From the NCBI GenBank assembly GCA_900316165.1, contig ONBW01000011.1:1-57417 (forward strand): DNA of 57,417 nt, read 5' to 3'. The DNA comes from an uncultured Lachnospiraceae bacterium (lineage in GTDB: Bacteria > Bacillota > Clostridia > Lachnospirales > Lachnospiraceae). Shown here in pieces: positions 3,857 to 39,588 of the stretch. Made by a program: the position numbers and the translations under genes. The notes under the pieces were generated by a model, which saw nothing but the letters and a program-made list of their open reading frames with translations, was not told where the DNA came from and searched no databases. How positions within the stretch are numbered: the first letter of the stretch is position 1; every line of letters begins with the position of its first letter.

Positions 3857-4258
3857 ATGGAATATTTGGTAGTAAATGGACGAGAGCTCGTAGGCAAAGT
3901 GCCTTTCGTTAGGGATGATTTCTGGCCAAATGGTGAGTTTACTGAACAAGACTATGTGAAATTACTCCACATGCCCGAGACATATTTTAAGAATATATCT
4001 CAGAAAAAGGTAAGCATAGATGACAAGAGATATTACATACAAGCGCCTCAGAGCTATCTGGATATAGGAAAAGCTAACCATATAGACTTCATCACTGATG
4101 ATAAGCCTATAATAAATGCATATTCTGTGTATATAGCAGAAAGTGTTAGCGTGAGACGTTGTAACGGAGGTTACGAATATGGCGGGATTAATGGTCGGCA
4201 CCGTTTCGTAACAGCAAAAAAATATGGGCTCGACTTACTGGTATGTGTAACAGATTGA
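3857..4258 (+). CDS. Small protein with a ParB/sulfiredoxin-like GxHR motif
   Basis: The 133-residue soluble protein is not one I recognise as a whole. Near its C-terminus (residues about 109-130) it has INGRHRFVTAKKYGLDLLVCV, which fits the G-x-H-R-x-x-A-x-x-x-x-G-x-x-x-h-x-V pattern of ParB-like nuclease/sulfiredoxin folds, where it binds nucleotide or DNA. There is no helix-turn-helix, so it is not a partition ParB; such mini-ParB domains occur in phage, DNA-modification and peptide-maturation loci. The start follows an AAAGGTAA ribosome binding site. It lies 110 bp upstream of the ATP-grasp peptide locus in the same direction. A shared role with that locus is inference only. Confidence 0.55.
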   Translation: MEYLVVNGRELVGKVPFVRDDFWPNGEFTEQDYVKLLHMPETYFKNISQKKVSIDDKRYYIQAPQSYLDIGKANHIDFITDDKPIINAYSVYIAESVSVRRCNGGYEYGGINGRHRFVTAKKYGLDLLVCVTD

Positions 4259-4305: not shown

Positions 4306-4368
4306 CAATTAAAATAATTTGGCATTTACAAGTAGCTAGAATTTAGAATATAGAGGAGAAATAACTTT

Positions 4369-4689
4369 ATGAAACCATTACTGCTTACAAAAGAAACAAA
4401 GAGAAATCATAACCAGAATGACCTTAAAAAGCCTTATACATATGATTACAATACTGATATGAATATGTATAACGGAAAGCTGTTTATTGAAGAGGCATCA
4501 TTTAATGATAGAGAGCTGCTTACAAAAACAGAAGCGGATCGTGAAAGAGATGATGAAGAAACGTTTATAGATACTGAAACATCTGAAAATGCTGACAGAA
4601 AAACAACTGTAGCCTTTTTAGAGATGATTTCAAAGACCTTTGCTGATCGTGAAAGTGATGACGAAGATGATTCTTATTATTACAAATAA
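4369..4689 (+). CDS. Putative graspetide (omega-ester/amide peptide) precursor
   Basis: The 106-residue hydrophilic peptide opens with a basic leader (residues 1-37, including the KKPYTYDYNTD segment). Its C-terminal half repeats a Thr/Ser plus acidic motif. T52-K-T-E-A-D-R-E-R-D-D-E-E and S88-K-T-F-A-D-R-E-S-D-D-E-D-D are clear copies, and T69 to T80 (TETSENADRKTT) is a degraded one. Graspetide cores pair Thr/Ser hydroxyls with Asp/Glu carboxylates, and an ATP-grasp ligase joins them into macrocycles. The next gene encodes such a ligase and starts inside this gene's 3' end (22-bp overlap). The ribosome binding site is GAGGAGA at 4353-4359. The core sequence does not match the microviridin TxKYPSD pattern I know, so the ring topology is unknown. 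Confidence 0.75.
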   Translation: MKPLLLTKETKRNHNQNDLKKPYTYDYNTDMNMYNGKLFIEEASFNDRELLTKTEADRERDDEETFIDTETSENADRKTTVAFLEMISKTFADRESDDEDDSYYYK

Positions 4690-5638
4690 AGAGGATGTCA
4701 CCGTCGATTATATAATTCGGCTTCTTGCGAAGGATGGCATCCCTTACTATAGGTTTAATACCGAGGATCTGTTTTCAAATGTAGATATTAGATTCATGAT
4801 AGACGGGGATCAATTCATCCTGTTTGATAGAGCGAAAGAAGCTGTTATTGACTTAAATGATGTCAAATCAGTATATTTCAGAAGGCCTGGAATTCCTGAC
4901 TTTAAGAATGTCGAAAATATATCTGAAGACGAGAGACGTTATTTGATCAGAGAGGCTTTGGCGGTTTTAGATGGTATATACAAGCGGCTGAGACATTGTT
5001 TTTGGATAAATGATGTTTTTAAGATTCGTGAAGCGGAGAACAAAATTTTCCAGCTTGAATTTGCTAAAATGATTGGATTTAAAATTCCAAAGACAATTCT
5101 GTCAAATGATGCTGATTTCGTAAAAGATGTTTTTAAGGATAGTAATTGTACTGACCTTGTAATTAAAGCAGTGAAATCAGGTAATGTTAATCCGAGGAAG
5201 GCAGAAACTATTATTTTTACATCAGATATATGCCTGGACGAAATCTCTGATAGTAATATCAAAGATTTTCCAGCGTATATTCAAGAGAAGGTAGAAAAGA
5301 AATCTGACCTTAGAAGTATTGTAGTTGGGGATCAGGTATTTACTGCTGAGATCATATCACAGGGTGATGACACTGCAAAAACTGACTGGCGAAAAAGTTC
5401 AAATCTTCTTGAACACCGAGTGTTTGAGCTTCCTGAAGATGTAAAACGGAAGTGTATTGCTATCACAAAAAGACTAGGGTTGGTATATTCTGCGATTGAT
5501 TTTGCCCTTGATAAAAATGATGAATGCATATTTTTAGAATGCAATCCAAATGGACAATGGGCTTGGATAGAAAATCGTTTGAAGCTTCATATCAGCAATC
5601 GTATTGAGGAGTTACTAGTGGATGGCAGGATTATTTAA
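4667..5638 (+). CDS. MvdC/MvdD-like ATP-grasp peptide ligase
   Basis: The 323-residue product has the layout of graspetide ATP-grasp ligases, which phosphorylate side-chain carboxylates of a precursor and close ester or amide rings. Visible marks are the N-terminal FRRP motif (residues 71-74), the ATP-binding strand VIKAVKSG (165-172), YIQEKVEKKSDLR with its conserved Asp-x-Arg (204-216), TDWR (239-242), AIDF (276-279) and the FLECNPNGQW metal-binding motif (289-298). I chose the ATG at 4667 because the protein then begins with MILIITNKED, the usual first strand. An upstream ATG at 4640 would add nine residues. The start lies inside the precursor gene and the stop lies inside the next gene, so the three are translationally coupled. 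Confidence 0.88.
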   Translation: MILIITNKEDVTVDYIIRLLAKDGIPYYRFNTEDLFSNVDIRFMIDGDQFILFDRAKEAVIDLNDVKSVYFRRPGIPDFKNVENISEDERRYLIREALAVLDGIYKRLRHCFWINDVFKIREAENKIFQLEFAKMIGFKIPKTILSNDADFVKDVFKDSNCTDLVIKAVKSGNVNPRKAETIIFTSDICLDEISDSNIKDFPAYIQEKVEKKSDLRSIVVGDQVFTAEIISQGDDTAKTDWRKSSNLLEHRVFELPEDVKRKCIAITKRLGLVYSAIDFALDKNDECIFLECNPNGQWAWIENRLKLHISNRIEELLVDGRII

Positions 5639-6350
5639 AGAAATCAGAGAATTTTTCTGGCCTGTTTTAGAGGGGGATGCTTCATCGCCCAAAGAACTTG
5701 AAACTAAAGAGATAATATGTTCTAATAAAGAGCTGGATGATTTAATAAGGATTGCAAAGGATTATGAGGCGTCGGAGAATGAAAGAAGGAAGGAAATTGA
5801 ATCCAAGGCATCTGTATTCATAGGCACCTTTGCTGTAGCGACAACCATTATTCTGAGCCTGGCTAAAGATTTTTTAAAGCAGAATACTCCAAGATACTTT
5901 TATCTGAATGTTATATTGATAGTTGCAATTATACTGTATCTATCCATGGCGATAATATACTCTGTTAAATGCCTGTCCAAACGTAATTTTTATATGCTTG
6001 GCTTCCCCATGTATCTGGTTTCAGATATCGATAAAAACCAAAAAAAGAAATTGGTTCTTTTAAACCTGGTAAATGATGTCAAGAAAAATCAAAATGTGAT
6101 CAATGACAAACTGGATTATATGGGGATGGCACAGGAATACTTCAAGAGAGCTGTTATCAGCGTTGTCATACTGACTATACTGCTGACAGTGGAAGCGATT
6201 GCTGACTCAGTTGCAAAGCAAAAAGCTCTTATCAGCGTTAGTATGTTAAAGGACATAGTTTTCTGTGTACTAATAATTTTGCTGTTTGCCTGTGAGATAA
6301 TGATTAACAAAAAAGTGGATAATTACCATATGTCTGACAAGAGACAATAG
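5622..6350 (+). CDS. Four-helix membrane protein of the ATP-grasp peptide locus
   Basis: The 242-residue protein has an N-terminal cytoplasmic stretch ending in an ERRKEIESKA helix. Four predicted membrane helices follow at about residues 64-84, 93-118, 170-193 and 207-228, with a Lys/Asn-rich loop between the second and third. The helix-then-paired-TM arrangement recalls SLATT/4TM-type proteins known from conflict systems, but I cannot assign a family. Its start overlaps the ligase gene by 17 bp, so it belongs to the same transcript and is probably co-translated. Export, membrane anchoring of the modified peptide, or self-protection are possible roles. There is no ABC exporter or peptidase next to it. 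Confidence 0.7.
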   Translation: MAGLFKEIREFFWPVLEGDASSPKELETKEIICSNKELDDLIRIAKDYEASENERRKEIESKASVFIGTFAVATTIILSLAKDFLKQNTPRYFYLNVILIVAIILYLSMAIIYSVKCLSKRNFYMLGFPMYLVSDIDKNQKKKLVLLNLVNDVKKNQNVINDKLDYMGMAQEYFKRAVISVVILTILLTVEAIADSVAKQKALISVSMLKDIVFCVLIILLFACEIMINKKVDNYHMSDKRQ

Positions 6351-6805: not shown

Positions 6806-7798
6806 TTGAATACGGAAATGACTAATTCTACGAAGGCGGCAGAAGACAAGGCGCAGTATGACACCAGTGCGAAGAGGCTGCTGTCACAAAAAAGTATACT
6901 CGCACACATCCTTGTACATACGATTGATGATTTCAAGGGGATGAAGCCTGAAGAGGCTGAGAAGTTCATCGAGGGTGATCCACTTATCGGTATTGTTCCG
7001 GTGGAACCGGGGTTGACTAATACAGAAGAGACTGATGAAAACGGGCAGCGGATTGTAGGTCTTAACACCGAGAGTGCTGAGATCAACGAAGGCATGATCA
7101 GGTACGACATTATTTTTTATGTGCGCATGCGAGATGGGCTTTCTCAGATGATTGTGAATGTCGAAGCCCAAAAAGATGAGCCAACCAGATATGATATTCT
7201 TAACAGAGCGATTTTCTACGCATGCCGTTTGATCTCCTCGCAGAAGGAACGGGATTTTGTAAATACCAACTACAATGACATAAAGCAGGTCTTCAGCATC
7301 TGGATATGCATGAATATGGATTATAACAGCCTGAGTCATATCCATCTGGTAAAGAATGAGATACTTGAACCGTGTGAGTGGAAGGGTAATCTGGACCTGC
7401 TAAATATCGTAATGATCGGTGTCACAAACGAGATACCGGAGCGCGAAGAGAAGTACGAGCTTCACCGATTAATCAGTGCACTGCTGTCAGATGATTTGCA
7501 GGTACAGGAAAAGCTTGATATAATAGGCAGCGAATACAACATTCCAATCAACAGTGATTTAAGGGAGGACGTGAATACTATGTGTAATCTGGCAGAAGGA
7601 ATCGAAGAAAGAACTCGGAAGGAAGAAAGAGAAAAGGCTAAGAAAGAAGTAGAGAAAGCCACAAAATCAACGATAAATAGTGTTATCATAAATATGTACA
7701 ATCAGGGCTGCACATTGGATCTTATTGCTAATGTGACAGGAACGAATGTAGATAAGGTTAAAACTGTGATTAAAAAGAAAAATCCTGCCATGGCATGA
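6806..7798 (+). CDS. Rpn family recombination-promoting nuclease / PD-(D/E)XK putative transposase
   Basis: The 330-residue protein matches the Rpn/PDDEXK_2 family of Firmicutes accessory DNA. It has the N-terminal D-x-x-F-K-x-x segment near residue 43, the nuclease core MIRYDIIFYVR (about residues 96-106) followed by QMIVNVEAQK (about 111-120) supplying the catalytic Asp and Glu-x-Gln/Lys, and NRAIFYACRLISSQ. A Lys/Glu-rich coiled region near residue 270 leads to a C-terminal helix-turn-helix-like end. The start is TTG at 6806, placed by the GGGGAGG ribosome binding site at 6791-6798. Rpn proteins are endonucleases linked to RecA-independent recombination and phage defence. It is intact, unlike the fragment at 9051-9404. 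Confidence 0.85.
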   Translation: MNTEMTNSTKAAEDKAQYDTSAKRLLSQKSILAHILVHTIDDFKGMKPEEAEKFIEGDPLIGIVPVEPGLTNTEETDENGQRIVGLNTESAEINEGMIRYDIIFYVRMRDGLSQMIVNVEAQKDEPTRYDILNRAIFYACRLISSQKERDFVNTNYNDIKQVFSIWICMNMDYNSLSHIHLVKNEILEPCEWKGNLDLLNIVMIGVTNEIPEREEKYELHRLISALLSDDLQVQEKLDIIGSEYNIPINSDLREDVNTMCNLAEGIEERTRKEEREKAKKEVEKATKSTINSVIINMYNQGCTLDLIANVTGTNVDKVKTVIKKKNPAMA

Positions 7799-7889: not shown

Positions 7890-8183
7890 ATGTATATTGT
7901 GAATGATATCTGTTATGCCGGTGAAATGGTGGAAGGTATAAAAGTTACAGAAGTAAAGCCACTGCGTGGAGGGATTATGCTAGTTACGTTCTCGACTGGC
8001 GAAAAGCGGTTATTTGATACCACTCTGTTAAAGGGACCTGCATTTGCTCCACTTGCAGACGAAAAAATCTTTGATAACCCGGTTTTGTTTCATGGTGCTA
8101 TAACGTGGGATAATGGAAAAATAGATATAGCTCCGGAAACAGTTTATCGGGACAGCTATTCGTACGACAATGTGGCGATTTAG
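7890..8183 (+). CDS. DUF2442 domain protein
   Basis: This 97-residue protein fits the DUF2442 family: VTEVKPLRGGIMLVTFSTGEK, then a central K/R-x-x-F-x-x-x-L-L-K-G-P-A-F-x-P-L segment, and GAITWDNGKIDIAPETVY at the C-terminal end. DUF2442 proteins are usually found beside DUF4160 proteins and are suspected to belong to toxin-antitoxin-like pairs or to assist mobile genes. No DUF4160 partner is visible here, so this is an orphan. A GAGGTAA ribosome binding site precedes the ATG. It lies between the Rpn gene and a strong terminator. Confidence 0.8.
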   Translation: MYIVNDICYAGEMVEGIKVTEVKPLRGGIMLVTFSTGEKRLFDTTLLKGPAFAPLADEKIFDNPVLFHGAITWDNGKIDIAPETVYRDSYSYDNVAI

Positions 8184-19657: not shown

Positions 19658-21205
19658 ATGTCATCACCAATCAGAATGTCCGGTATGGTATCCGGCCTTG
19701 ATACAGAGTCTATCGTTACCGCTCTGACAAGTGATTATCAGAATAAGGTCGATAAGTATAAGAAGGCGCAGACCAAGCTCTCATGGAAGCAGGACGCCTG
19801 GAAGGAAGTAAATACTGAGGTTAACGACTTCTATAACAGCCTCGATAAGTACAGATATTCATCTGCATGGAGCCTCCAGAAAGCTACAGTTTCAGACGCT
19901 ACCAAGGCTACTGTTTCGACTAATGGTAAAGCTTTCAACGGAACACAGACGCTTGAGATTACACAGCTGGCTACTTCTGCGTCACTTACGAGTGGAAAGC
20001 TTTCCTATACCGATTCAGATAAAAAAGCTCATACAGTTACATCCAGCACTAAGATTTCAGATATTGCAGGTGGTGCTACTGGAGATTTGACGATCAAGGT
20101 TGGAGATAATGATACTACATTTACAGTAGATTCAGATACTACAGTTAATGATCTGGTAAACGCATTAAAGACTGCAGGCCTCAATGCTTCATTTGATGAG
20201 ACTCAGCAGAGATTTTATATCAGCTCAAAGAGCTCAGGAAAAGACCAGAGCTTTTCTCTGAGTGGATCTGACGATATCCTTAAAGCCTTAAAGCTTGACA
20301 GCTCGACCAGAGCAAATGCTACAGATGGACAGGATGCCATTATAAAGCTCGACGGAGTTGAATACAATAACTCTACGAATAACTTCAGCATCAACGGATT
20401 GAATATCCAGGCACAGGCTACTACCAGCAGTGCCATCACTGTTACATCTCAGACTGATACACAGGGTATCTACGATAAGGTCAAGGAGTTCATCTCTTCC
20501 TATAACGACCTGATTAACGACCTGACAGACAGATACAACGCTGCAAGCTCTGGCTCATATGAACCTCTTACTGATGATGAGAAGTCACAGATGTCTGATA
20601 AAGAGGTTGAGAAGTGGGAGAAGAAGATCAAGACTGGTCTCCTGCGTCGTGATGATACTCTTGATTCTATAATGAACACACTGACTAATGGTATGATGGC
20701 TTCATACTATGATGATTCAGTTGCCACAATGGATATCAATGGTAAGCAGACTTTAAACGCCGGCGTTACCTCAGCAAAGAAATACAGCCTTGCTACTTTC
20801 GGTATCATGACGAAGGGTATCCTTCAGTCAGCTACCAACAGACAGTATGAGTACCATATCGATGGTGATGAGGATGATGATTCTGTATCATCGAACACGG
20901 ATAAGCTGATGACAGCTATCACAGAGGATCCGGATAAGGTTATTGATCTGGTTAAGAATGTCGCAAATAACCTCTCCAGGAACTTAAAGAAGCAGATGAC
21001 AGCTACATCGCTTCGTTCAGTATTTACTGTCTACAATGATAAGGAAATGGCCAGCGAGTATTCGAGCTACACCGAGCTTATTAATACCTGGACTACAAGA
21101 CTTAACGATATGCAGGACAGCTACTACAAGAAGTTCTCAAAGATGGAGTCTACACTGTCGAAGCTTCAGCAGAGTACAAGCTCGATTTCGGGACTTACAT
21201 CATAA
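19658..21205 (+). CDS. fliD: Flagellar filament cap protein FliD
   Basis: The 515-residue protein begins with the FliD signature SPIRMSGMVSGLDTESIVTAL and continues with a coiled region (KQDAWKEVNTEVNDFYNSLD). The FliD C-terminal domain contains VKEFISSYNDLINDL, and the end is helical (SSYTELINTWTTRLNDMQDS, then SKMESTLSKLQQSTSS). FliD caps the growing filament and helps flagellin fold. It is followed by fliS, the usual flagellin-chaperone partner. This is the canonical FliD; a shorter divergent relative is at 38261-39559 on the minus strand. No truncation is seen. Confidence 0.93.
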   Translation: MSSPIRMSGMVSGLDTESIVTALTSDYQNKVDKYKKAQTKLSWKQDAWKEVNTEVNDFYNSLDKYRYSSAWSLQKATVSDATKATVSTNGKAFNGTQTLEITQLATSASLTSGKLSYTDSDKKAHTVTSSTKISDIAGGATGDLTIKVGDNDTTFTVDSDTTVNDLVNALKTAGLNASFDETQQRFYISSKSSGKDQSFSLSGSDDILKALKLDSSTRANATDGQDAIIKLDGVEYNNSTNNFSINGLNIQAQATTSSAITVTSQTDTQGIYDKVKEFISSYNDLINDLTDRYNAASSGSYEPLTDDEKSQMSDKEVEKWEKKIKTGLLRRDDTLDSIMNTLTNGMMASYYDDSVATMDINGKQTLNAGVTSAKKYSLATFGIMTKGILQSATNRQYEYHIDGDEDDDSVSSNTDKLMTAITEDPDKVIDLVKNVANNLSRNLKKQMTATSLRSVFTVYNDKEMASEYSSYTELINTWTTRLNDMQDSYYKKFSKMESTLSKLQQSTSSISGLTS

Positions 21206-37087: not shown

Positions 37088-38290
37088 ATGGAAATAAAAA
37101 GTAGGAAAAAAATTCTGGTATACCGCTGGAAGGCCTATAATTACGAGGATGTGATCACATCGTTTGAGAGGGCCGGGTACCAGGTCAAGTGCATCTACCA
37201 GAAGCTGATGAGCTATGATGTAAATGGCGAGTTTGCTGAAAAAATAGAACGCGAGCTTGCAAGTGAAACCTATGAGTTCGTATTCACGATAAATTATTTC
37301 CCGGTAATCTCAGATTCCTGCCAGAAAATGGGGATCGAGTACGTAAGCTATAGCTGCGACAGCCCGCTGATCTCGATGTATCATGAGTCGGTTTTTAACG
37401 ATGTAAATCGTATATTTTTATTTGATGTCGAGTCAGTTGCGAGGTTTCGAGCTCTTGGCGTTAAGCATGTGAAGTATCTGCCACTAGGGGTTGATGTCGC
37501 CCGACTCGATGAACTTCTAAAAAAGCCATCTCCATTTTCAGAAGAGATGACGCAGACACTTCAAAGCTCCTTAAGCTTTGTGGGCTCACTCTATGAGAAA
37601 AATTCATACGACAAAACGAGGGAGGCGCTGCCTGAGTATCTGCAGGGATACTTCGATGCGTGTATGGAGATTGAAAGCAGGAGGTTCGGGACCGAGCATT
37701 TTTTCGATGAAATGATGACGACAGAAATCGGCGAGGAACTGATGGAGCATCTTGATTTCAAAAAATCGGAACGCTCTTTTTCTGAGCTGCCGTTTGTTTT
37801 CTCAGTGACTTCCCTTGGATTTAAGTGCGCGCAGATTCAGAGAAAGCGGGAGCTTGCCACTCTTTCGAGGACGCACTCAGTCTGTCTTTTTACGGAAAGC
37901 GACACTGAAGATCTTTTTTCTGTGAAAAATATGGGGCCGGCAGACTACCGGCTCATCATGCCGTGGGTGTTCAACAAATCGGCGGTAAATCTTAATTTTA
38001 CAATACCAAATATCCATACAGGGATACCGCTTCGTGTATGGGATGTCTTAGGTGCCCGTGGTTTTCTTTTTACAAATCATCAGAAAGAGCTTGGCAGCTT
38101 TTTTAAGGACGGAGAAGATCTAGTCTGGTTTGAGAGTGAGGACGAGCTTATCGACAAAGCTGATTTTTACATGGATGAAAAAAATGCCTCCCTGCGGGAT
38201 AAGATCTCGCAGAGAGGTTATGAAAAAGTGGCTTCGTACCACACGTTTGATCAGAGGATATCACAGCTTCTCGTCGATAAGGAGGCCTGA
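37088..38290 (+). CDS. CgeB/DUF3880-like glycosyltransferase, copy 3
   Basis: The 400-residue third paralog begins MEIKSRKKILVYRWKAYNYED and has FVFTINYFPVISDSCQKMGIEYVSYSCDSPL in its N-terminal half. The C-terminal half shows NKSAVNLNFTIPNIHTGIPLR, WDVLGARGFLFTNHQKEL and LRDKISQRGYEKVASYH. The usual S-C-G-G of the donor loop is G-A-R-G here, a change shared by neither neighbour. The last 30 bp overlap, in convergent orientation, the 3' end of the FliD-like gene on the other strand, with no terminator between them. A flagellin- or cap-modifying role is suggested only by that neighbour. Confidence 0.8.
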   Translation: MEIKSRKKILVYRWKAYNYEDVITSFERAGYQVKCIYQKLMSYDVNGEFAEKIERELASETYEFVFTINYFPVISDSCQKMGIEYVSYSCDSPLISMYHESVFNDVNRIFLFDVESVARFRALGVKHVKYLPLGVDVARLDELLKKPSPFSEEMTQTLQSSLSFVGSLYEKNSYDKTREALPEYLQGYFDACMEIESRRFGTEHFFDEMMTTEIGEELMEHLDFKKSERSFSELPFVFSVTSLGFKCAQIQRKRELATLSRTHSVCLFTESDTEDLFSVKNMGPADYRLIMPWVFNKSAVNLNFTIPNIHTGIPLRVWDVLGARGFLFTNHQKELGSFFKDGEDLVWFESEDELIDKADFYMDEKNASLRDKISQRGYEKVASYHTFDQRISQLLVDKEA

Positions 38291-39559
38291 ATAAGGGCTC
38301 GTCGCATAGACTGCTGTAAAGTAGTTCTTCGTCGGGTCCTTGTACTCGACTGTGATTTTCTTCACGTAGCGCATCGGGTCAATCGAGGACTTTTCGGCTT
38401 CTCTGTGAAGAGCGGCCTTGAAGCTGTTCAAACTGTGAAATGCTTCTTTGACACCTGGGCCTGAGACTGACTCGTCGAGCTTATCCTTATCTATCTGCAG
38501 CAGGCCGAAGTCATCATGGGTGATGCCGATACTTTCAAGCTGATCCTTAAGAGCATTGCTTACAGAAGACATCTCCTTTACAAGGCTTTCATCGCCGCTG
38601 GTGTCAGCGTATTTCTGCCCTACAGCGATAAAGCTGTTGTAGGAATCGATAAGCTCTGAAACAGAATCCGTGATCATATCGGTATCAGCTTTAAAGCCTA
38701 TCGTAACAGGCTTCCCGGGCTCCGTCGTATTTTTTAAATCAATCGCAAAGCGCTGGTTTATAGTAAAGGAGTTCGACAGGGCATGGTGCTCCGTACCGTT
38801 TAATGCGAAAGTGGCATTCTCAGCCGGCTGTGTTACCTCATCGATGCCCAGCGCCTTGATAGCATTGTAGCTCGCACCGGAGCTGATCTTAAATAAGTAA
38901 TTCTCAGTAGATGAAAGTCCGGTCTGCTTCGACGTGATCACAAGCGAAGACATTCGCCCGTAGTCCTTAACCTCAGCAGTAAGTCCTGTGTCTGATTTAT
39001 TAATCAGGCGTTCAATCTTCTGCTGAACATCGAGGTTTGTATCTCCATTATTTACTGTAAACTGGAACTCGTATGAGCCTGAATTCGTATCGAGGTCGAA
39101 GCTGTAGGAGTCAGGCTTGAAGTCACTGCTGGTCTTTACCAGCGGATGGCCCTCGTTTACCTGAGGCTTAGCCAGGCTCTTTACATCTATTGTAAAAGTA
39201 GAAGAGGTGTCGACATCGTCAGACTGGCTTCCTATATAGTCTACAGAGACCTGATCCTCGTTTGAAGAGTAGGCCTTTTTTTCATTCAGGACAGATTCTA
39301 TACTTCCTGAACCGCCGCCCATCTTTGTCACGATGTTTTCCATCTGGTGGGCGTTGGCCTTCAAATCTATGGCAAATTCTGCTACACGTGGGGTATAGTC
39401 GATTTTATATACAGGGGAATTCCTGTTAGTGCGGACCATACGGCTGTAAACGTCGCGCAGTTCGCTCTTTTTATGGTTATCATACTTCGCGGAGGAAGTC
39501 TGATTGCCGTATGTGGACATGAGGTAGCCTAAAACTACCGTGCTGTTAATGATGGCCAT
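38261..39559 (-). CDS. Second FliD-like flagellar hook-associated protein
   Basis: The 432-residue protein lacks the canonical GLDTESIV start but has FliD-type domains. TFTIDVKSLAKPQVNEG (N-terminal FliD strand), LDVQQKIERLINKSDTGLTAEV with SLVITSKQTG, NATFALNGTEH and FTINQRFAIDL match the middle. SVSELIDSYNSFIAVGQKY plus FGLLQIDKDKLDESV match the FliD C-terminal domain. It could be an alternative cap or a flagellum-associated secreted protein. The ATG at 39559 is eight bases after AGGAGG; the GTG at 39565 is too close. Upstream on the same strand lies a structured leader at 39589-39676. It ends convergently inside the third glycosyltransferase gene. Confidence 0.75.
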   Translation of the reverse strand: MAIINSTVVLGYLMSTYGNQTSSAKYDNHKKSELRDVYSRMVRTNRNSPVYKIDYTPRVAEFAIDLKANAHQMENIVTKMGGGSGSIESVLNEKKAYSSNEDQVSVDYIGSQSDDVDTSSTFTIDVKSLAKPQVNEGHPLVKTSSDFKPDSYSFDLDTNSGSYEFQFTVNNGDTNLDVQQKIERLINKSDTGLTAEVKDYGRMSSLVITSKQTGLSSTENYLFKISSGASYNAIKALGIDEVTQPAENATFALNGTEHHALSNSFTINQRFAIDLKNTTEPGKPVTIGFKADTDMITDSVSELIDSYNSFIAVGQKYADTSGDESLVKEMSSVSNALKDQLESIGITHDDFGLLQIDKDKLDESVSGPGVKEAFHSLNSFKAALHREAEKSSIDPMRYVKKITVEYKDPTKNYFTAVYATSPYSGLLIDEKL

Positions 39560-39588
39560 GAGCACTTCCTCCTTTCTTCCGTGAAACT

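Follow-up and report, generated by a model that had tools for sequence, protein, structure and literature searches.

Within the graspetides, a family of peptides cross-linked by ATP-grasp ligases, the core of thuringinin reads TxxTxxxExxDxD, and plesiocin, which belongs to group 2, carries the motif TTxxxxEE. In the parts of Makarova et al. (2022; PMC8939145) available to us, thuringinin-type repeat precursors form cluster 13, their cores belonging to groups 3, 5 or 6 of Lee et al., and cluster 18 (198 occurrences) is a membrane protein family, uncharacterised and described as specific for thuringinin loci, which are mostly without known transport systems and for whose membrane protein transport is predicted; protease inhibition is given there as the activity of all graspetides characterised so far. 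The accessible portion of Carter et al. (2026; PMC13097080) describes 24 graspetide groups and 19 more, several of them with co-occurring proteins that fit no model. The locus considered here lies at positions 4369–6350 of a stretch of 57,417 nucleotides from an uncultured Lachnospiraceae bacterium (contig ONBW01000011.1, positions 1–57,417, assembly GCA_900316165.1; the whole stretch is called the window below), where three plus-strand genes, for a 106-residue precursor peptide, a 323-residue ligase and a 242-residue membrane protein, overlap head to tail. Since an association of thuringinin loci with uncharacterised membrane proteins is on record in PMC8939145, this three-gene architecture is of a known kind. 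What is new is the remote homology, judged from profile comparisons, between the membrane protein family and PycTM, an effector of Pycsar anti-phage systems that forms a pore (described in PMC11224242 as transmembrane-spanning). The balance of the evidence tips slightly towards a self-contained mobile graspetide cassette in which a ring-bearing peptide and a PycTM-type membrane protein act together, with conflict or immunity as the likely setting.

The second gene (4667..5638, plus strand) was assigned using hidden Markov models (HMMs), PDB matches and a phylogenetic tree, and these comparisons support its product being a graspetide-type ligase distinct from RimK. The FRRP, DWR and FLECNPNGQW motifs pointed out in a preliminary description of this DNA, made from the sequence alone, are all to be found in it. 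The NCBIfam matches rank TIGR04187 first (E = 3.6e-73), ahead of MvdC (7.1e-59), MvdD (6.4e-53), grasp-with-SPASM (1.5e-37) and the RimK family (4.6e-13), each below its curated cut-off (246.5 against 350 bits for TIGR04187), so that the protein is not a named equivalog; in Pfam an MvdD pre-ATP-grasp domain is found above cut-off. Its best relatives in the PDB are the microviridin-type entries 7m4s, 5ig9 and 5ig8, followed by 7mgv (CdnC) and 9bou, and 7drm, which we take to be the plesiocin ligase PsnB, matches weakly (E = 2.2e-8). In a tree of 98 of 125 rows, built with a fast method and supported by Shimodaira–Hasegawa-like approximate likelihood ratio test (SH-aLRT) values only, the window ligase pairs at 97% with that of Lachnospiraceae bacterium RGIG3763 (locus L027, from a roe-deer abomasum metagenome), and the clade that holds both (25 rows, 97%) is made up of Bacillota, Bacteroidota, gammaproteobacterial, phage and unclassified entries. 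The thuringinin spacing, recognised by eye, occurs at locus L018, whose ligase belongs to the same 69-row clade as that of the window (99%), on a separate long branch. A ligase akin to RimK or to glutamate ligases, adding amino acids rather than closing rings, might be suggested by a second Pfam match above cut-off, to the RimK-like ATP-grasp domain (E = 1.6e-7). Against this stand the HMM ranking, the tree, in which three RimK rows are split from the ligase at 100% SH-aLRT, and the conserved Thr..Glu/Asp repeat peptide that adjoins the gene; the idea is very improbable and was rejected on these three counts. The preliminary description had recommended HMM searches and phylogeny as a check of its graspetide assignment, and both place the ligase with the graspetide enzymes.

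The ligase family is shared with microviridin (MdnB/MdnC), as is a P-h-h motif close to the leader's N-terminus. However, the window peptide is without the TxKxPSD core, as was recognised at the outset, and the genome encodes one ligase (a single match at E 0.001) rather than two, for which reasons microviridin membership was rejected; a single ligase match was also the case for 46 of 50 carrier genomes (E 1e-15). A further difference is that neither an acetyltransferase nor a peptidase-ABC (ATP-binding cassette) transporter was found among the four neighbouring open reading frames (ORFs) scanned with Pfam, at 41, 3857, 6806 and 7890; no ABC exporter, protease or acetyltransferase was present in this set, in agreement with what had originally been noted.

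The precursor (4369..4689, plus strand; an ORF call, with a leader alignable to those of relatives) is matched by no Pfam or NCBIfam model at E 1. The leader-like region, from residue 1 to about 50, has an MKPLLL N-terminus and a stretch YDYNTDMN...LFIE, and can be aligned with the leaders of seven relatives. The 106-residue repeat peptide of the preliminary description is borne out in the form of two strict repeats, TKTEADRERDD at residues 52–62 (4522..4554) and SKTFADRESDD at residues 88–98 (4630..4662), which in the DNA lie within a direct repeat of 48 nt at 4512–4559 and 4620–4667, all on the plus strand, the copies being 77% identical and 108 nt apart. Of 200,000 shuffled versions of the precursor, one had two or more copies of the strict pattern, [TS][KR][TS]x4Ex[DE][DE], a figure to be read with the fact that the pattern was fixed only after relatives had been inspected. 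Residues 69–78 look, by eye, like a possible decayed third copy. Across the 186 repeats of 63 precursors, Lys fills position 2 in 80%; among the residue classes pre-set by the pattern, Thr rather than Ser occupies positions 1 and 3 in 94% and 96% respectively, position 8 is Glu rather than Asp in 94%, and positions 10 and 11 are Asp rather than Glu in 97%.

Since T-x-T-x4-E-x-D is symmetric, the simplest ring plan would be two nested esters, T3–E8 inside T1–D10, for which the proposed donors are T52 and T54 in the first repeat and S88 and T90 in the second, with E59 and D61 (or D62), and E95 and D97 (or D98), as proposed acceptors. Both D11 and K2 are conserved and have no role in this plan, so that the rings might include a lactam or use another outer acceptor. 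That ring formation of the graspetide kind takes place at this locus is very probable indeed, and the repeated segments of this short protein are probably stitched into small rings by the neighbouring ligase. The likeness to thuringinin lies in the single ligase, the multi-repeat Thr/Glu/Asp precursor and the presence of an uncharacterised membrane protein; in L018 a membrane protein occupies the same place, aligning weakly with that of the window (17% identity). The differences are that the window repeat, T/S-K-T-x4-E-x-D-D, does not have the thuringinin core spacing and that its ligase belongs to a separate sub-clade. With plesiocin it shares tandem hairpin bicycles from one ligase, as predicted here, and the Thr-x4-Glu inner spacing, but it has one more residue per arm and Asp as outer acceptor, and the resemblance of its ligase to 7drm is weak. 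The exact core-motif strings were absent from the literature text searched.

The preliminary description had taken both ring pattern and export route to be new. That novelty is not supported, given the thuringinin-locus membrane family of PMC8939145 (in the parts available) and the abundance of relatives: the locus is one of a widespread kind, its three-gene set is not unique, and what is supported of the earlier interpretation is the assignment to a graspetide-type locus, from the ligase HMM ranking, the tree and the adjoining Thr/Asp-rich repeat precursor. An alignment-based scan of a species-level collection gave 459 stretches matching the pattern, 443 of which encode relatives; a contig scan with the single sequence had found none. 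Counts were made on the best 80, which cover Bacillota, Bacteroidota, Pseudomonadota and further phyla. In the preliminary description relatives were expected to adjoin a Thr/Asp-rich peptide, and here all of those counted, L027 included, conform: an ORF upstream of the ligase has the strict repeat in 63 of 80 and a variant Thr/Glu/Asp repeat, recognised by eye, in the remaining 17. A membrane-type ORF (at least 150 residues and at least two predicted membrane stretches, with its longest start between 400 nt before and 120 nt after the ligase end) is present at the ligase end in 73 of 80, and together with the strict repeat in 59 of 80. Among the seven others, L042 and L083 stop at a contig edge, L058 has the ORF upstream, and in L047, L052, L068 and L081 it is displaced or short. 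When ORFs from 101 genome and viral loci were clustered, one group, in which the ligase and membrane protein families had been merged by chaining, covered 92 loci and the precursor group 72, and every other group reached at most 11 loci; the 11-locus group includes integrase-like examples, by eye. There is thus good reason to regard the membrane protein as a dedicated functional partner within the cassette. On viral contigs the association is sparser (membrane ORF in 6 of 21 loci, strict repeat in 4 of 21), and 14 of these 21 group in the tree with the Streptomyces tgmB ligase instead. Ligase matches at E 1e-20, counting the own genome and other core types, occur in 3 of 397 genomes from the family, 2 of 392 from the order and 8 of 398 from the phylum.

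Some loci depart from the usual arrangement. L015, L016 and L058 have the same composition in an altered order (membrane protein, precursor or precursors, ligase). In L013, L019, L020 and L021 the precursors are of another type: they are short and carry a single ADRETGED-like stretch at the C-terminus (FDIETGED in L013), with ligase and membrane protein downstream; in the genomes of the last three the membrane-profile match carries one internal TAA. Finally, twelve loci from Bacteroidota and Ignavibacteriota (L066, L068, L071, L072, L075, L078, L081, L082, L088, L092, L093 and L104) have a variant core with repeats of approximately TxTxTKxxxExxDSD, by eye, and the eight of them sampled in the tree form one ligase clade.

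The third gene (5622..6350, plus strand) was placed in a PycTM-like family from its structure model and family profile comparisons. The model (72 rows) has the four helices foreseen in the preliminary description, all of them long, at residues 35–86, 93–118, 138–200 and 207–241, with a predicted local distance difference test (pLDDT) score of 88.7 and a predicted template modelling (pTM) score of 0.79. The protein has FFWPVLEG near its N-terminus and an ESKA motif ahead of the first membrane stretch, and in an alignment of 70 family members E52, R55, K62, N161 and K163 (window numbering) are at least 90% conserved. One PycTM model of PADLOC is matched by 17 of these 70 (best E 4.1e-7) and two more by 11 and 9, any other family being matched by at most two. 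Using hhalign, comparison of the family with an alignment of 12 PycTM domains, collected with Pfam PF18967, gave probabilities of 91.4 (E = 8.8e-7), 92.0 and 94.9, as against 0.0, 0.0 and 0.1 for reversed-profile controls, and a probability of at least 20 was reached by 8 of the 12 single PycTM sequences against 1 of 92 other membrane ORFs, the second set of controls (Pfam DUF2721, matched in 3 of 12 genomes, was dropped as a source of control families). Two features have counterparts in PycTM in the profile alignment, the KA motif ahead of the first membrane stretch and a Lys that precedes a later one, and a blastp search against the 12 PycTM sequences alone finds one match for the member from L109 (42% identity over 55 residues, E = 2.4e-4).

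In 396 phylum genomes, the source genome among them, the family profile had 10 matches at 1e-4. Seven of these are ligase loci (the window and those in G1053, G1081, G1039, G1058, G890 and G940), and the weakest (E = 1.3e-5), in G868, is a 200-residue protein that matches PycTM at 2e-16 and is flanked by two PycC-matching cyclases (1.2e-23 and 6.6e-12) in a Pycsar-like operon (L222, contig C1, 5111–7344). Most matches are thus tied to a ligase, and the outside kin include a Pycsar effector. No transporter family recurs in Pfam at E 0.01 among the 70 members, which have only single-member matches, and on these sequence grounds the protein appears closer to PycTM than to any transporter.

A number of observations weigh against this reading. 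The window protein itself matches no PycTM model, its best PADLOC match being PDC-M18B (E = 0.0031), and it matches no Pfam family at E 0.01. Fold searches against PDB and viral structures gave nothing at E 0.001, and the top viral entry, S5VYM5, is nameless and has E = 0.33; such searches are uninformative here because the protein is of the long-helix type. One control membrane ORF reached an hhalign probability of 44, and six of the eight PycTM sequences at or above 20 align over just 22–62 columns (the remaining two over 119 and 120); moreover, the 12 PycTM sequences are mostly close kin and do not amount to independent tests. At E 0.01 per genome, PF18967 picks out no cassette protein in 42 carrier genomes and other proteins in 25 of them, implying that the link is visible mainly with family profiles. 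Two of the ten profile matches, in G1014 and G792, have neither a ligase nor a recognised cyclase alongside, by eye, and G938, which holds L018, is not among the ten, its membership of the 396-genome sample not being stated. Nor did Pfam find a cyclase among the four window neighbours scanned, and membership of Pycsar proper was rejected for want of an adjoining PycC cyclase in that scan; the partner in the window is a peptide ligase, and the homology is remote. No PycC cyclase is found either among the Pfam and PADLOC matches listed for 148 flank genes of relatives. Two further searches gave little: the Pfam PycTM model has one match in 149 phylum genomes, and a plasmid scan with the single membrane protein gave none at E 0.01.

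In a more conventional account the peptide is secreted and probably inhibits proteases, with the membrane protein exporting it or protecting the producer. Transport was predicted by Makarova et al. for the thuringinin-locus membrane proteins (PMC8939145, as far as available), and the frequency with which a membrane ORF adjoins the ligase (the 73 of 80 relatives given above) would suit an exporter. On the other side, the recurrent match of the family is to PycTM rather than to any transporter; no fourth family occurs in more than 11 of the 101 loci, leaving no common leader protease or exporter (unrelated proteases or a distant gene being possible); and this one small protein is shared by bacteria with one membrane and with two, which would be odd for a sole exporter. 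Such a cluster must be considered a possible but not the preferred explanation, as the PycTM kinship of the third gene would move the likeliest role from export towards a peptide-controlled membrane effector. No link between graspetides and PycTM was found in the titles and opening abstract lines listed from the graspetide and PycTM literature, subscription literature being mostly outside that scope, and SLATT together with ATP-grasp returned only unrelated passages from the text available.

The mobile character of the cassette is indicated first by its composition. Its G + C fraction is 0.352 against 0.443 for the window (0.9th percentile among windows of equal length), and a ligase match at E 1e-20 is lacking in G312, the only other genome of the genus that was searched; these two facts make arrival by transfer likely. 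Copies are found in a Leptospira phage, a gut phage scaffold and plasmids of Sinorhizobium, Croceicoccus and Pseudomonas. The surroundings of relatives were compared for 20 of the 50 carriers, picked for their long contigs, using 148 of 152 flank genes and 148 of 167 control genes from 100 kb away on the same contigs. The Pfam family Phage_integrase matches 5 of 148 flank genes and at most 1 of 148 controls; among the Pfam matches listed, the flanks also have Methylase_S, TIR_2 and IstB (two each), and dehydrogenases, epimerases and ABC transporters lead in the controls. PADLOC at 1e-10 matched 182 models in flanks against 55 in controls, a crude comparison, inflated because the models are redundant. 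As a separate observation, the Leptospira phage LE1 holds the entire three-gene cassette (L022, 3679–5580; KF114876.1, 58798–60699), flanked by helix-turn-helix genes and close to a ParB-like gene; the annotated coding sequence before the ligase there (3886–3999) spans just the end of the precursor ORF.

As to how such a cassette might work, the ligase, whose identity comes from its sequence and whose chemistry is inferred, would bind the leader region and phosphorylate Glu and Asp side chains. Each repeat would then acquire two nested esters, an inner one (T54–E59; T90–E95) and an outer one (T52–D61; S88–D97), so that every repeat would become a hairpin-like bicycle and the product, now two-headed, would have lost about 72 Da in total. 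The PycTM-like membrane protein, homologous at family level, would act with this cross-linked peptide, which most likely would control it as a ligand or a restraint, so that the cassette would serve in conflict or immunity and not be a secreted-inhibitor cluster of the conventional sort. For a conflict or effector role taken by itself we put the case at close to even, or slightly below. A bolder version, in which this is a widespread phage- and plasmid-borne conflict system whose multivalent ester-hairpin peptide directly gates or restrains a PycTM-type pore, an intracellular immune signal or restraint thereby replacing the cyclic nucleotide, is offered tentatively.

A variant of this scheme is a toxin–antitoxin-like pair, in which a putative toxic pore would be held by the cross-linked peptide as bound inhibitor, and lost cross-linking or ring opening would free it. 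The PycTM homology would accommodate such a pair, as would the mobile setting, the patchy spread and the overlapping genes. However, the order membrane protein, precursor, ligase also occurs (the three loci noted above), and we know of no toxin–antitoxin pair that uses such a ligase, which counts against the idea; it appears unlikely, if still worth bearing in mind. Returning to the peptide-controlled effector, we likewise know of no graspetide for which a role within the producer has been established. Should the membrane partner prove to be a PycTM-type effector, several hundred graspetide loci (the 443 relatives) could serve in immunity or competition, and membrane effectors would have a new class of control element in peptides cross-linked by esters.

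Some details of the locus and its neighbourhood may be added. All three ORFs of the overlapping set described at the outset are present. With stop codons counted, the precursor and ligase genes overlap by 23 bp (4667–4689), not the 22 bp first reported, and the overlap of ligase and membrane protein genes (5622–5638) is 17 bp, as reported. The ligase start was taken to be the ATG at 4667, the automatic ORF call reaching upstream to a TTG at 4640. A GAGGAG resembling a ribosome-binding site lies at 4353..4358 (plus strand), 10 nt ahead of the precursor ATG, by eye. Upstream of the cassette, a 133-residue ORF (3857–4258, plus strand) ends C-terminally in NGRHRFVTAKKYG, which looks ParB-like by eye, and has no Pfam or NCBIfam match. 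Downstream, an ORF of PD-(D/E)XK transposase type (6806–7798, plus strand; Pfam E = 4.5e-4, under the Pfam cut-off) is followed by a DUF2442 gene at 7890–8183. Elsewhere in the window, a second ORF with a FliD C-terminal domain (38261–39565, minus strand; E = 1.5e-12) lies on the opposite strand from, and distant to, a FliD-like gene at 19658–21205.

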